Below, one piece after another: positions 14,947 to 22,245 of a DNA stretch of 50,324 nucleotides. This DNA comes from an uncultured Methanobrevibacter sp. Its GTDB lineage: Archaea; Methanobacteriota; Methanobacteria; Methanobacteriales; Methanobacteriaceae. The translations under genes were made by a program, and so were the position numbers. Within the stretch, counting starts at the first letter, position 1; the number at the start of each line of letters is the position of its first letter. Location: the NCBI GenBank assembly GCA_902771225.1, contig CACXWH010000028.1, positions 1 through 50,324 on the forward strand, written 5' to 3'. Below the pieces are notes generated by a model. It was not told the DNA's origin and ran no database searches. It was given only the letters and a program-made list of their open reading frames with translations.

Positions 14947-16530
14947 ATGACAGATAATAACTGGAAGTTAGTTGATTCATTTTTTGACAAATATGATTTA
15001 GTTGATCACCATATTAAATCATATAATGATTTTGTGAATAATAGAATTCAGAAAATTATTGACATTAGCGAACCTATTGTTATTGAAAACGATGAAACTG
15101 ATGAAAAAACTGGTGAAATCAAAAAGGTTAAATATACTGTGAAAACTGGTCAAGTTACAATCAGAAGACCATTTACCCGTGAAGCAGATGGTTCTAATAG
15201 TGATATTTATCCTACTGATGCAAGACTTAGAAATTTGAACTATTCTGCACATATGTACCTTGATATGGCATTAAATAAGGATGATGAAGATAATCCTTTA
15301 GAAAAGGTTTACATTGGAGAATTGCCTGTAATGTTAAAATCTGACTACTGCTATCTCAATGGTCTTTCTGCTGAAGAGTTATTAGAACATAATGAAGATC
15401 CTCAAGATTTAGGTGGTTATTTTATAGTAAATGGTTCTGAAAGAGCTGTTGTAACTATGGAAGAAATTGCACCTAACAAGGTTATTCTTGAACGTGTTAA
15501 AGAAATTGAAGATAGGCATGCTAAAGCAGTTGTAACTTCAATTAGAAGTGGTTTCAGAGCTAGAATTACTTTAGAATATAAAAAACCACGTAAAAATAAA
15601 GCGTTTTTAAGAGTATCTTTCCCTTATGTTCCGGGTGAAATACCATTAGTTATTTTGTTAAGAGCTTTAGGTTTATCAACTGATGAGCAAATAATTACTA
15701 AAATTTCTGAATCAAATAATAATTTCCAAATGATTATTGCAGATGATATTAAAGTTTCTGAAGAAGCTCTCAAGTTAGATCCTGCTGAAATGCAAGATTT
15801 ATCAATTGAAGAGAGAAATGAATATTTAACTACTGCTGCAATTAAATATATTGGAAATCGTGTTGCTTTTAAAATGTCTGAAGATTATCGTATTCAACGT
15901 GCTGAAGAAGTAATTGACCGTTACTTATTGCCTCATTTAGGAGATAGTAAAGAAAAACGTGCGGATAAAGCTACCTACTTAGCTGAAATGACTGAAATGT
16001 TACTTGAAGTTATTCATGACCAAAGAGAACCTCACGATAAGGACCATTATACTAATAAAAGACTCAGAGTTTCTGGAGATTTAATGGAAGATTTATTCAG
16101 AGTTGCTTTCACTAATTTAACTAGAGATATGAGTTATCAACTTGAAAGAAGTATTTCCAGAGGTAAAGAACTTTCCATTAAACAGGCAGTTCGTAGTGAT
16201 GTTTTAACTGAAAACATTAAGCACGCAATTGCTACAGGTAATTGGGTTGGTGGAAGAGCTGGTGTAAGTCAGCTTTTAGATAGGACCAGTTACATGGGTA
16301 CTCTTTCTCATTTAAGACGTGTTGTATCTCCATTAACAAGAAGTCAACCTCACTTTGAAGCAAGAGATTTGCACCCAACTCAGTTTGGTAAGATTTGTCC
16401 TAATGAAACTCCGGAAGGACCAAATTGTGGACTGGTAAAGAATTTAGCTTTAATGTGTAATATCTCTGAAGGTTCTGATGAACAACAAATTAAAGAAATA
16501 ATTAAAACTATGGATGTTGAATTGATTTAA
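14947..16530 (+). CDS. rpoB2: RNA polymerase subunit B'' (Rpo2 N-terminal part)
   Basis: The 527-residue product covers the protrusion, lobe and fork of the second-largest subunit. GYFIVNGSERAVVTMEEIAP is the rifampicin-region-like signature, SRGKELSIKQAVRSD and WVGGRAGVSQLLDRTSYMGT follow, and it ends with ARDLHPTQFGKICPNETPEG. It is close to the usual size for the methanogen half-subunit. The GGAGGAAG ribosome binding site is at 14936-14943. B' starts only 10 bp after its stop. Confidence 0.95.
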   Translation: MTDNNWKLVDSFFDKYDLVDHHIKSYNDFVNNRIQKIIDISEPIVIENDETDEKTGEIKKVKYTVKTGQVTIRRPFTREADGSNSDIYPTDARLRNLNYSAHMYLDMALNKDDEDNPLEKVYIGELPVMLKSDYCYLNGLSAEELLEHNEDPQDLGGYFIVNGSERAVVTMEEIAPNKVILERVKEIEDRHAKAVVTSIRSGFRARITLEYKKPRKNKAFLRVSFPYVPGEIPLVILLRALGLSTDEQIITKISESNNNFQMIIADDIKVSEEALKLDPAEMQDLSIEERNEYLTTAAIKYIGNRVAFKMSEDYRIQRAEEVIDRYLLPHLGDSKEKRADKATYLAEMTEMLLEVIHDQREPHDKDHYTNKRLRVSGDLMEDLFRVAFTNLTRDMSYQLERSISRGKELSIKQAVRSDVLTENIKHAIATGNWVGGRAGVSQLLDRTSYMGTLSHLRRVVSPLTRSQPHFEARDLHPTQFGKICPNETPEGPNCGLVKNLALMCNISEGSDEQQIKEIIKTMDVELI

Positions 16531-16539
16531 GGGGGTGAA

Positions 16540-18756
16540 ATGTTGACTAAATATACTGATAATGATATAATTGATGCTTATAAGTTTTTTGGATTTGATA
16601 AAGTTGTTACTCGTAAAAAAATTAGAGATGCTTTTGAGGAATTAGCTAAAACCCATCATCCGGATAATGGCGGTGATGAAGAAAAAATGGCTGAAATTAA
16701 TTCCCACAAAGAAGCTATTGAAAGTTTTTTCAAATCCCATAAAAAATTAGGAAAAAATACTAGGCTCAGCAAAGCATTCGAAGAAGTTTTTGAAGACATT
16801 GAAAACTTTGTGCATCCTGAAGAAAATGCAGAAGATGCCGCTAAGAATGAAGATGCAGACTCAGATAATGAGGTTTTAAGTGAACAAGTCCCTGAAGAAG
16901 ATTTTAAACAGGAAGAAGTAATAGAAACTCCAGTAACTACAAATAATCTTAAAACAAAAATCTACATTAATGGTGAGCTTTTTGGAACTTGTGATAATCC
17001 TGTTGAATTTACACAAGAAATGAGAGAAAAAAGAAGAAAAGGTCAAGTTTCCCATGAAATGAACATTACTTATTATGAAGATAATAATGAGATTTATATT
17101 TTCAATGATCCGGGTAGGGCTAGAAGACCTTTAATTATTGTTAAAGATGGTCAACCTCTCCTTACTGAAGATCATCTTAATAAAGTTGCAAACGGTAAAT
17201 TAAAATGGGATGATTTAATTGAAAAAGGTGTTATTGAGTATTTGGATGCTGAGGAAGAAGAAAACTCATATATTGCCATGAGATTGAATGATTTAAATGT
17301 TAATCATACTCATTTGGAAATCGACCCTGCTACTATGTTAGGTATCTGTGCAGGTATTATTCCATTTTCAGACCATAATTCCTCACCAAGGAATACTATG
17401 GAAGCAGGTATGACAAAACAGGCTTTAGGATTATATGTATCCAATTATTCTTTCCGTACTGATACTAGAGCTCACTTATTACATCATCCTCAAACTCCAA
17501 TAGTTAAAACACGTATCATTGACTCAACTAATTATGATTTAAGACCTTCCGGTCAGAACTTTGTTGTTGCATTAATGAGTTATGAAGGATATAACATGGA
17601 AGATGCAATGGTTATCAATAAAGGTTCTCTTGAAAGAGGATTAGGCAGGTCTTCATTTTTCAGATCATATGACACTTCTGAAAAAAGATATCCTGGTGGT
17701 CAGGAAGATAACTTCGAAGTGCCTGATAAAAACATTAAAGGATACCGTTCCGAAGAAGCTTATAGGCACTTGGATGAGTATGGTGTTGTTAATCCGGAAT
17801 CATATGTTGAATCTGGTGATGTATTGATTGGTAAAACTTCACCACCAAGATTTTTAGGTGAATTTGATGAATTAGCTAGTGCTGCAGAAAAAAGAAGAGA
17901 AACTTCTGTAACTGTACGTCATGGTGAAAAAGGTATCGTTGATGCTGTTTTATTAACTGAAACTATTGAAGGTTCCAGACTTGCTAAAATTAGAGTTAGA
18001 GATACCAGACAGCCTGAATTTGGTGATAAATTTGCATCAAGACACGGTCAGAAAGGGGTTATTGGTTTAATTTTATCTCCTGAAGATGTTCCTTTCACAG
18101 AGTTTGGTGTTGTACCTGATTTGATAGTTAATCCTCACGCTATTCCTTCAAGGATGTCTGTGGGTCAGGTGCTTGAGATGGTTGCTGGTAAAGCAGGATG
18201 TCTTGAAGGAGAACGTATTGATGGTACTCCATTTAATAAAGAACTTGAAAAAACAATTAAACAATATCTTTTAAATCATGGATTTGAGTCTGCAGGCTGT
18301 GAATCATTATATAGTGGTGTGACTGGTGAAAGAATTGAAGCAGAAATCTTCGTTGGAGTAGCATATTATCAAAAATTACACCACATGACTACTGATAAAG
18401 TTTATGCTCGTTCTAGAGGCCCTGTACAAGTACTTACACGTCAACCTACTGAAGGTAGGGCTCGTGAAGGTGGTTTAAGGTTTGGAGAGATGGAAAGAGA
18501 TTGTCTTATTGCGCATGGTGCAGCTTTAACCTTAAAAGAAAGGCTTTTAGATGAATCTGATAAATATGAAGCAATTGTTTGTGAACATTGTGGAATGTTG
18601 GCTGTTGAAGACAAAAATAGAAATAAAAAATATTGTCCAATTTGTGGAGATGTAGAAACTTATCCAGTTGAGATATCTTATGCATTTAAATTGTTATTAG
18701 ATGAACTTAAAAGTTTATGTATCTTCCCTAAATTAGTTTTAGGAGACAAAGCATAA
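16540..18756 (+). CDS. rpoB1: RNA polymerase subunit B' with an N-terminal J-domain
   Basis: The 738-residue product has two parts. Residues about 136-738 are a complete B': [81 protein letters not shown], and a zinc ribbon CEHCG...CPICGD near residues 676-697. These about 600 residues equal a normal B'. Residues about 9-65 form a J-domain: DAYKFFGFD, then [20 protein letters not shown] with H40-P41-D42 intact, then an [13 protein letters not shown] helix. An acidic, low-complexity linker (about 92-130) joins the parts. The start is fixed by GGGGGTGA immediately before ATG 16540 and by the 9-bp gap after rpoB''. No ATG lies near residue 136. The J-domain could recruit an Hsp70 (DnaK) to the polymerase; that is inference. 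Confidence 0.93.
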
Positions 18757-18774: not shown

Positions 18775-21700
18775 TTGAAAGAATTTATCAAAAAAATTGA
18801 AAGAATTAACTTTGGATTAATGTCTCCAGAAGATATTCGTAAGATGTCTGTTGTTCGTGTTGAAACTCCAGATACTTATGACTCTGACGGTTATCCAATT
18901 GAAAACGGTTTGATGGACCCTCGTTTAGGAGTTTTAGACCCTTCACTCAGATGCCACACCTGTGGTGTTAGAGGTGGAGATTGTCAAGGACACTTCGGTA
19001 GTATTGAACTTGCAAGACCAGTTCTTCATGTTGGTTTTGGAGATATTATTCATAAAATATTACGTTCAACCTGTAATGAATGTGGACGTGTTCTCTTATC
19101 TGATGATGTTTTAGAAGATTATAGGGAAAAAATAGCTGATGCTATGGACCATAAAGAGAATTTAGAGGATGTTTTGAAAAAAATTCAAAATGAAGCTAAA
19201 AAAGTTGAAATGAATGAATCAAAACAAAACGATATCGTTGATAAAGTCATGGATGAAATTTATCCTGAAAAAGATGATGAATATGACGATATTGACCGTG
19301 AAGACATCTTATTGAAAATTCTAAATCAACTTTATGCTGAAGCATACATGAAAAGAGACGATGCTGAAGATAAACATTCATTCAAATTTATCGATCCAAA
19401 ACAACTCTGTCCTCACTGTAGGAAAAACCAAAATTTAGCAGATATTGAGGCAAGTTATGATATATTAGAAGCTAAACATACTGAAGATATTAATAATATT
19501 AAAGAAAATATCCGTTCTAATATTGAAAGTGATTATACTAAAAAAATTGAAAAAATTGATGCTAAACTCTCTGAACTTAATAGTAAGGGTGATGCTGATG
19601 CTATTACTAATTTGGAAGATGAAAGGGCTAAATTAGTCGAAGAACAAGAGTTAAAATCTGATAAAAAGTTCAGCAATGAATTTAAAAAACGCATTAATGA
19701 TTATGTTGCAGAGTATGTTAAAAGTCTTGTTCAGGAATCAATTGTTTTAGATAAACCTACTACTATCAGTCAGGGAGATTATAAGTTAACTGCTTCTGAA
19801 ATCCGGGAAAGATTGGAAAGGATTAATGATGAGGATATTTTTGTTTTAGGTATTAATCCCGAAGTTGCCAGACCAGAATGGTTAGTTTTAACTGTATTGC
19901 CTGTTCCTCCAGTAACTGTAAGACCATCTATTACTTTAGATACTGGTGAACGTTCAGAAGACGATTTAACTCATAAATTAGTTGATATTTTACGTATTAA
20001 TCAAAGATTAGTTGAAAATATGGAAGCTGGTGCTCCTCAATTGATTGTTGAAGATTTATGGGATTTATTACAATATCACGTTACTACTTACTTTGATAAT
20101 GAAGCTAGTGGTGTTCCACCGTCCAAACACAGATCAGGCAGACCTTTAAAAACCTTAACTCAAAGGTTAAAAGGAAAAGAAGGAAGATTCAGATCAAACC
20201 TATCAGGTAAACGTGTAAACTTCTCAGCACGTACTGTAATCTCTCCAGATCCAAACATCAGTATTAACGAAGTCGGTGTTCCTGAAATGATTGCAAAAGA
20301 GGTAACCGTACCTGCTTATGTAAACGACTGGAACATTGATGAAATTAGAACTTATGTTGAAAACGGTCCTAATGTACACCCTGGTGCAAATTACATGATC
20401 AGTGAATCTGGAAACAGAAGAAAAATCAATGAAGATACTAAAGAGTATATTTTAGAGAATTTAAAACCTGGTGATGTTGTAGAAAGACACTTGAAAGATG
20501 GAGATATGGTTTTATTCAATCGTCAACCTTCACTTCACAGAATGAGTATGATGGCTCATGAAGTAAGGGTATTGCCTTATAAAACTTTCAGATTAAACTT
20601 ATGTGTATGTCCTCCATACAATGCAGATTTCGATGGGGACGAAATGAACATGCACGTTTTCCAGACTGATGAATCCCGTGCAGAAGCAAAATCATTAATG
20701 CGTGTACAGGAACATATTTTATCTCCAAGGTTCGGTGGACCAATTATCGGTGCAATTCACGACCACATTTCCGGAGCATATTTGTTAACAAGAAAATCAA
20801 TGAAATTCACAGAAGAACAAGCATTGCAAATAATCCGTAAGTCACATTTAGCAATTCCTGAAAATGATGGTGAAAAATGGTTATTAAAATCTGAATCTCA
20901 GGAAAGTCCTGAAATTGAAAGGGAAATTGCTAAAAAGACCAAAAATGTTCGTGGAACCAAATCAGATAAAGAAGCTTATCTCAATACTTTAGACTTAACT
21001 GAAGACGAAATATCTAAACGTCTTAAAGCAAACAAATGGAATGATGAAGAAAAAGAAATCATCAAATCCATTGCACGCAAACGTATTGCTGATGAAATCA
21101 CTGCTAAATATTCATCTGATAATCAAGATAGTGCTGATTCAATCATTGAAAAATTGAACGGTGAAGAATGGACAGGTAAAGAGTTATTCTCATTACTTTT
21201 ACCAAATAACTTAAATTTAACTTATAAGGCTGAAATTTGTACTAAATGTGGCCAATGTGACAGAATTTTACGTGAAGCTCCTGATTTGGATGTTGTTGAT
21301 TATGATAAATTATGTCCTATTGATGCATATGTCATGATTGAAAACGGTATCTTAAAACATGGGGTTGTTGATGAGAAAGCATATGGATCCATGTCAGGTC
21401 AAATTTTAGATAAAATTGTTAAAGAATATGGTCCTGGAAGAGCTAAAGAATTCTTAGATAGGGCTACTGACTTAGCTATCTGTGGAATTATGGTAACCGG
21501 TATTACAACCAGTTTAAATGATGAAGAAATTCCAGAAGAAGCCCAAGACAGAATTAACGAGCACTTACAAAAATCAGAAGAAAAAGTAGACAGGTTAATT
21601 GATGCTTATAACGAAGGTTTCCTTGATGCTTTACCGGGTAGAAGTTTAGAAGAAACTTTGGAAATGAGAATTATGCAAGTTCTCGGGGAAGCCAGGGATA

Positions 21701-22245
21701 AATCTGGTGAAATCGCAGAAGATTACTTAACTATGGAACACAACCACTCTGTTGTAATGGCACGTACAGGTGCTAGGGCATCTATGTTGAACTTAACACA
21801 GATTACTTCTTGTGTAGGTCAACAGGCAGTTAGGGGTGGACGTATCCACAGGGGTTATATTGAAAGAACCTTACCTCACTTCAAAAGAAACGAATTAGGG
21901 GCAAAGGCAAAAGGATTTGTACATTCAAGTTATAAATCCGGATTAGACCCAATTGAATTCTTCTTCCACGCTATGGGAGGAAGAGAAGGTCTTGTAGATA
22001 CTGCGATTCGTACAGCACAATCCGGTTATATGCAAAGAAGACTTGTAAACGCACTTCAAGATTTACAGGTAAAACCATCAGGACTTGTAACTGATAATCA
22101 AAGTAATGTTGTTCAAAGAATCTTTGGTGACGATGGTGTAGATCCAGCTAAAAGTGACTTTGGTATAGCAGCAAACTTAGATAAACTTATTGAAGAGATT
22201 AAATTAGAAGAAAAATCTCATGAAATATCTCAGGAAGGTAAATAA
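18775..22245 (+). CDS. rpoA1: RNA polymerase subunit A' with large insertions
   Basis: The 1156-residue product has the active-site [12 protein letters not shown] at 616-627, zinc site C60-C63-C70-H73, a second pair C100/C103 with C212/C215, RPPLKTL-like switch and lid segments ([20 protein letters not shown]), and the trigger-loop-side [15 protein letters not shown]. Usual archaeal A' is, from memory, about 870-900 residues. The excess lies at about 144-208 between the zinc pairs, about 218-322 (charged heptad-like, probable coiled coil), and about 697-795 before the [15 protein letters not shown] block. A cysteine cluster C822-C825-C828 with C847 follows. The TTG start at 18775 sits behind GGAGCTGG. 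It probably remains functional because all core motifs are intact. Confidence 0.94.

Follow-up and report, generated by a model that had tools for sequence, protein, structure and literature searches.

A J-domain fused to RNA polymerase subunit B' in Methanobrevibacter, and related extensions that lack the HPD motif

J-domains are small domains that normally switch on Hsp70 chaperones, and the core of multisubunit RNA polymerase (RNAP) is among the most conserved of enzymes. Some J-related domains no longer carry the HPD motif: Pam16/Tim16 and other pseudo-J (type IV) proteins, according to two papers (PMC13254874, PMC11349236), have kept the domain and lost HPD, and they offer a model for the many relatives of the locus described here that lack HPD. 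The 2026 review among these (PMC13254874) calls it "enigmatic" whether HPD deviations are evolutionary accidents or were selected. As at our locus, a J-domain is joined by gene fusion to a protein of another kind in the archaeal DnaJ-Fer of Thaumarchaeota (PMC3564930); its partner is a ferredoxin, its origin was linked to transfer from Viridiplantae, and its abstract makes no connection to transcription. For RNAP itself, the first-pass annotation of the DNA studied here knew of no described subunit with a J-domain, and we likewise found none among the matches listed in a search of titles and abstract beginnings in the open-licence literature.

A J-domain and a complete RpoB' in one open reading frame

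The stretch of DNA that we analyzed (the window; 50,324 nucleotides from an uncultured Methanobrevibacter sp.) contains an archaeal RNA polymerase gene cluster. The gene rpoB'', which encodes the upstream one of the two halves of subunit B (527 aa; 14947..16530, forward strand; ORF, NCBIfam NF007175 at E 1.6e-222), is directly followed on the same strand by an unbroken ORF of 738 codons (16540-18756) composed of about 87 codons of J-domain, an acidic linker and a complete RpoB'. The next ORF of the RNAP cluster, at 18775..22245 on the forward strand, is one that we take to be rpoA'. Pfam DnaJ and RpoB' models both match within the single frame at 16540-18756, which confirms that the J-domain first reported at the N-terminus of B' is genuine and belongs to one unbroken gene. 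Frameshift or misassembly as a source of the fusion was rejected, given that eight genomes, counting that of the window, have the HPD-bearing form with no stop codon within the match, and that one of the eight (G014) is a single contig.

The description of the downstream part as an acidic linker followed by a B' of normal size also held. The linker spans residues 88-137 of the translation (16801..16950, forward strand), and RpoB' proper, with Rpb2 domains 4-7, covers residues 138-738 plus the stop codon (16951..18756, forward strand). The RpoB' equivalog TIGR03670 scores 1003 bits against a cut-off of 811 (E 3.8e-302), aligning ORF residues 141-737 to positions 1-598 of the 599 in the model, and Pfam Rpb2_4 to Rpb2_7 are all matched. 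Models of DnaJ match only within residues 1-144, ahead of the RpoB' domains, and the G/F region, C-terminal substrate domains and zinc center of DnaJ were all absent from the window B' in Pfam and NCBIfam scans.

For the translation start, the earlier proposal was divided by comparison among genomes. The Shine-Dalgarno-like run between the two genes, GGGGGTGA (16531..16538, forward strand), is indeed present after rpoB'', and by pattern search 42 of the 43 genomes that bear the extension have a similar run at the corresponding position. The ATG that had been proposed as the start codon (16540..16542, forward strand) occurs at this position in 24 of the 43, versus 42 of 43 by pattern for the TTG that follows it (16543..16545, forward strand); in the 43rd, G013, which the pattern missed, a TTG after the Shine-Dalgarno run was found by eye. 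These counts indicate that rpoB' probably starts at TTG 16543 instead of ATG 16540, with a product of 737 aa.

The J-domain itself occupies residues 7-66 (16558..16737, forward strand). As first read, the HPD tripeptide is intact in the translation (H40, P41, D42), and it forms part of a HPDNGGD loop at 16657..16677 on the forward strand, with HPD at 16657-16665. When residues 1-135 were compared alone with Pfam DnaJ (PF00226), a check suggested in the earlier reading, residues 12-55 matched at 28.1 bits, just over the cut-off of 27.8 (E 2.3e-6). The same model gave 28.0 bits on the B' extension in a whole-genome search, again over the cut-off, and 23.6 bits (E 5.4e-5), under it, on the whole 738-aa protein. 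The best phmmer match among PDB sequences was the J-domain of Escherichia coli DnaJ (E 3.9e-6, residues 12-81 aligned), and in hhalign the eight HPD-bearing species aligned to 39 DnaJ J-domains with E 1.3e-9 and a score of 52.7.

Structure prediction, another of the checks suggested, was equivocal. The AF2 model, built from 12 rows in which HPD and HPD-less sequences were mixed, shows three helices around HPD (I, 7-16; II, 25-39; III, 47-66), with the motif between the second and third; these limits come from a region with pLDDT of about 70, and the model as a whole is weak (mean pLDDT 58.5). The first Foldseek row was a J-domain (5nro_B), but at E 1.5. In VIA-align, J-domains, named as such or generally known as such, made up nine of 25 rows, at Z of 3.2 or less, and spectrin-like and other unrelated helical rows ranked above them with Z up to 5.3. 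In our structural comparisons SV40 small t and Tim14 chains are counted as J-domains. In another frame of the window's genome (L096, G000:C9 near 44220; 250 aa), HPD occurs in a helical, coiled-coil-like context, where Pfam DnaJ scores 19.9 bits, below its cut-off.

Distribution and history within the genus

We searched 138 genomes of the family with the window's extension. The B' core was matched in 123 of them, including 61 of the 67 genomes of the window's genus; the six genus genomes with no B' match were left out of the counts, and N-termini were read in 60 of the 61, leaving out G104, in which the N-terminus of B' is missing. The search placed the extension on B' in nine genus genomes with E 4.2e-18 or better (eight with HPD, plus G013 without it) and also found one separate J-protein at E 2e-6. 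The 60 N-termini comprise eight with HPD, 35 with a long extension that lacks HPD, four with a short acidic extension, 12 with none and one unsplit B. Homologous extensions are therefore carried by 43 of 60, of which eight, the window's genome included, keep HPD and 35 do not, and this rules out an oddity of a single species. Methanobrevibacter millerae SIG13 and a Methanobrevibacter from goat reticulum are among those with HPD, and M. thaueri SIG17 is among those without. Open frames of 68-267 codons precede the B' core in the 43 extension-bearing genomes, and the J part and the core share one open frame in all eight HPD genomes.

Outside the genus, no J-domain on B' was found in the listed rows for the 138 family genomes or among the matches listed for 151 genomes of the phylum. 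In the survey of B' lengths that had been recommended, split B' proteins outside the genus have open frames of about 603-635 aa, fragments apart, compared with a frame of 741 aa in the window. Some frames outside the genus reach about 1,010-1,230 aa and represent unsplit B (three read, the rest judged by length).

On a midpoint-rooted tree of 70 B' cores, the extension is confined to a clade of 51 rows with support of 99/92, consisting of eight rows with HPD, 35 with an extension lacking it, one with an acidic extension only and seven with none. The eight HPD rows cluster in 92% of bootstrap trees, with weak support (91/46), and next to them lie G032, with an acidic extension only, and G013 and G118, both without HPD. 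The simplest reading of this tree, assuming that HPD was never regained, would be a single fusion, with at least three losses of HPD and more than one loss of the whole domain. Scans of a phage collection and of viral contigs gave no donor that could be named. Matches occurred in 13 of 50,697 phage records, none covering 80% of the query, the best being an annotated dnaJ of Bacillus phage vB_BcoS-136 at E 2e-5, and the viral-contig scan yielded 22 loci with HPDxGG J-domains. A 170-aa protein in G002 (L017:1219-1731, G002:C59, minus strand) has a HPDCGG J-domain like the viral-contig kind and is a possible example of the type of donor.

The relatives also presented several features beyond the extension itself. 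Four genomes have an unsplit B in open frames of 1,127-1,182 aa (L077 in G012, L085 in G067, L093 in G068 and L091 in G089), while most of the family genomes read have the split form. The four rows fall in three separate places on the B' tree, suggesting repeated re-fusion or transfer. G005 has a second, unsplit B (L092, G005:C103) beside its own split B'; its core is near-identical to that of G089 (L091), from another genus, and it is probably assembly contamination. A J-like stretch in G113 (G113:C152:14130-14342) contains one in-frame TGA and may be a broken B' N-terminus; this genome has no B' match over the threshold. J matches were also seen in frames of 744 and 781 aa in G153, of another genus (G153:C205:10194-10388 and G153:C36:14684-14833), on contigs other than the one with its B'. 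Within the B' extensions of two relatives, between the J-derived part and B', we found CarboxypepD_reg-like beta-sandwiches, in G119 (L108:3299-4015, E 2.8e-8) and, as two stretches, in G101 (L041:700-1500, E 5.3e-23), and the extensions of L037, L038 and L046 are similar to these by eye. Such domains are usually extracellular, so their presence on RNAP is odd.

Homology and constraint of the HPD-less extensions

The HPD-less extensions are related to the J-domain through the HPD-bearing forms. A profile of the eight HPD rows matched a profile of 33 of the 35 HPD-less rows (G013 and G118 left out) at E 1.4e-13, and the reverse comparison gave E 1.7e-12 with a score of 69, versus 19 or less in 50 column-shuffled controls. 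Taken singly against the HPD profile, all 35 scored above 200 shuffles of themselves, 33 of them at E below 1e-3. On the score against the 50 shuffles and the 35 individual results, we rejected the possibility that these extensions are unrelated to the J-domain. Whole-genome searches with the HPD profile matched at least 15 of the 35, the best, G013 apart and among the matches listed, being 1e-8 in G005. Direct comparison of the HPD-less set with 39 DnaJ J-domains gave no match (E 0.22, the level of shuffled sequences), so these forms are tied to J-domains only via the HPD forms, and Pfam DnaJ matched none of the eight that were scanned out of the 35.

AlphaFold, run on ten rows of HPD-less sequences alone, predicted three helices with pLDDT of about 86-89 in the J region. 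Foldseek returned nothing significant for this model; a J-domain headed its list, at E 3.6. VIA-align listed J-domains in 12 of 16 rows, including the top six, with Z of 4.6 or less, which the tool describes as a common level; the other four rows (2l7k, 9lnt, 1x79 and 5w6l) are not J-domains.

Selection was assessed in 16 species pairs (six with HPD and ten without), some of which share a species and so are not all independent. The J region has dN/dS of 0.11-0.36 in the six HPD pairs, in which its dS is about 0.45 to 1.1, and 0.09-0.38 in the ten HPD-less pairs. The linker ranges from 0.39 to 1.02 in five HPD pairs (the sixth was not computable) and from 0.19 to 0.54 in the HPD-less pairs, and the B' core from 0.01 to 0.06 in the same species. 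One pair of the 16, G116/G028, has a J region no tighter than the linker (0.376 vs 0.331). The window ORF has no in-frame ATG, GTG or TTG in the interval between codons 91 and 161. From this and the low dN/dS of the J region, we conclude that the J region is translated and is under constraint whether or not it has HPD.

Among the eight HPD-bearing species the loop HPDNGGD is identical, with silent changes in five of its seven codons. Given 36 invariant columns out of 86 and ignoring relatedness, the chance that all seven columns are invariant is 0.0016, the loop having been chosen post hoc; for HPD alone the corresponding value is P 0.07.

Possible functions and comparison with known systems

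The window's genome encodes dnaK and dnaJ, adjacent to each other after an ORF named by eye as GrpE-like. According to a review (PMC8215388), the placement of the J-domain on DnaK is set by five residues of DnaJ (R22, K26, R27, K48 and K51). The corresponding positions are basic in 8, 0, 3, 0 and 0 of the eight HPD-bearing B' domains, respectively, and the K26 position is acidic in seven of the eight. DnaJ J-domains of related archaea (39 of 41 loci tried, L008 and L200 having been missed by the pattern) are basic at R22, K26, R27 and K48 in all 39 and at K51 in none, which makes the last position uninformative. In the 22 viral-contig J-domains the basic counts are 17, 16, 6, 10 and 1, and K26 is acidic in none. 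The loss of R27, K48 or K51 is thus not peculiar to the fusion, and loss of the full contact patch is weakened as an argument, as K51 is non-basic in 39 of 39 DnaJ sequences and R27 and K48 are often non-basic in the viral-contig domains; it is the acidic K26 position that marks the polymerase fusion.

The first-pass annotation had proposed that the fusion would dock DnaK on the polymerase, which our results support only in part. In its favor are the constraint on HPD within its clade and the presence of dnaK and dnaJ; against it, K26 and K48 are never basic and R27 is basic in three of eight. In 35 of 43 genomes, moreover, the extension is conserved yet lacks HPD, and on this pattern Hsp70 docking cannot be its only function.

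From these comparisons we propose, with belief and doubt about evenly balanced, that the B' J-domain was fused once and acts on DnaK as a tethered class C J-domain in the HPD clade, while in most other lineages it is a pseudo-J docking module. A single event, early in the history of a large clade of gut methanogens that belong to one genus (its named relatives are Methanobrevibacter), would have joined the J-domain to the N-terminus of B', where B'' and B' are split. There it hangs on an acidic, fast-changing linker ahead of Rpb2 domain 4. In chain B of an archaeal RNAP, residues 516-1116 are the part to which residues 138-737 align, and with the split site this gives the place of the J-domain on the polymerase, presumably on the surface, at the external-1 domain. 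In the eight species of the window's clade the tethered domain would most likely stimulate the cell's DnaK at the polymerase, in the service of assembly, repair or remodeling of polymerase complexes, the putative clients. HPD would have been kept there for Hsp70 action with an altered docking surface, alongside a HPD-independent docking role that would be the only one remaining in other species; most other lineages would have lost HPD and retained the domain as a pseudo-J docking module. A bolder form, in which RNAP is itself an Hsp70 co-chaperone whose B' loads DnaK and so couples transcription or assembly to the chaperone state, its sisters having a HPD-free regulatory dock, falls in our estimate a little short of an even chance.

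The extension could instead be a HPD-independent docking domain in all species, the window's included: a J fold that, like that of Pam16, has been turned to a new use and binds another protein or another part of RNAP, with DnaK uninvolved and HPD surviving in one clade for structural or historical reasons. This is possible rather than probable. The HPD-less J regions are as constrained as the HPD forms (dN/dS 0.09-0.38 and 0.11-0.36), the K26 position is acidic in seven of eight even where HPD persists, and repurposed J-like domains do exist (PMC11349236, PMC13254874); on the other hand, HPDNGGD is unchanged in eight species while its codons vary. This last point weighs against HPD-independent docking in every species, as we know of no function of HPD besides Hsp70 activation.

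We regard as improbable that the extension is a tolerated relic at the N-terminus of a split B', on which nothing depends. Linkers drift and accept other domains (CarboxypepD_reg), the extension is gone from the seven rows with none and the one acidic-only row inside the 51-row clade, and the J region of G116/G028 is no tighter than its linker, but that is one pair in 16. A relic would sit poorly with J-region dN/dS of 0.09-0.38 in all 16 pairs, with HPD and without, although not all are independent, and with the open frames of 68-267 codons kept ahead of the core in 43 genomes. Least credible of all, and very improbable, is that proteolysis or internal initiation near residue 136 removes the extension and leaves the J part as a separate short protein. 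The long, acidic and poorly conserved linker would suit cleavage, but codons 91-161 of the window ORF offer no in-frame start, and the J part shares one open frame with the core throughout the HPD genomes.

Compared with the archaeal RNAP B' represented by TIGR03670, the window B' is likewise complete over Rpb2 domains 4-7. A domain derived from an Hsp70 activator, present lineage-wide on the catalytic half of RNAP, would represent a new wiring between transcription and proteostasis, and in the bolder form of our proposal the genus would offer, on an enzyme that is essential, a naturally occurring range of forms leading from J to pseudo-J. The same orthologous domain, always in one position on the rpoB' gene, occurs with HPD in eight species and without it in 35, under purifying selection in all pairs tested, and this makes the question of selection versus accident testable. 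Pam16 pairs with a J-domain in the mitochondrial import motor, whereas here the domain belongs to RNAP and orthologues with HPD persist. Like class C J-domain proteins, the window B' has a J-domain with its HPD loop and no DnaJ C-terminal domains, and several of the viral-contig HPDxGG J-domains resemble by eye its HPDNGGD loop at HPDNGG and its helix III at 'MxEIN'. Unlike both, the carrier here is a catalytic subunit of RNAP, and the K26 position is acidic in seven of eight, compared with none of the 22 viral-contig domains.
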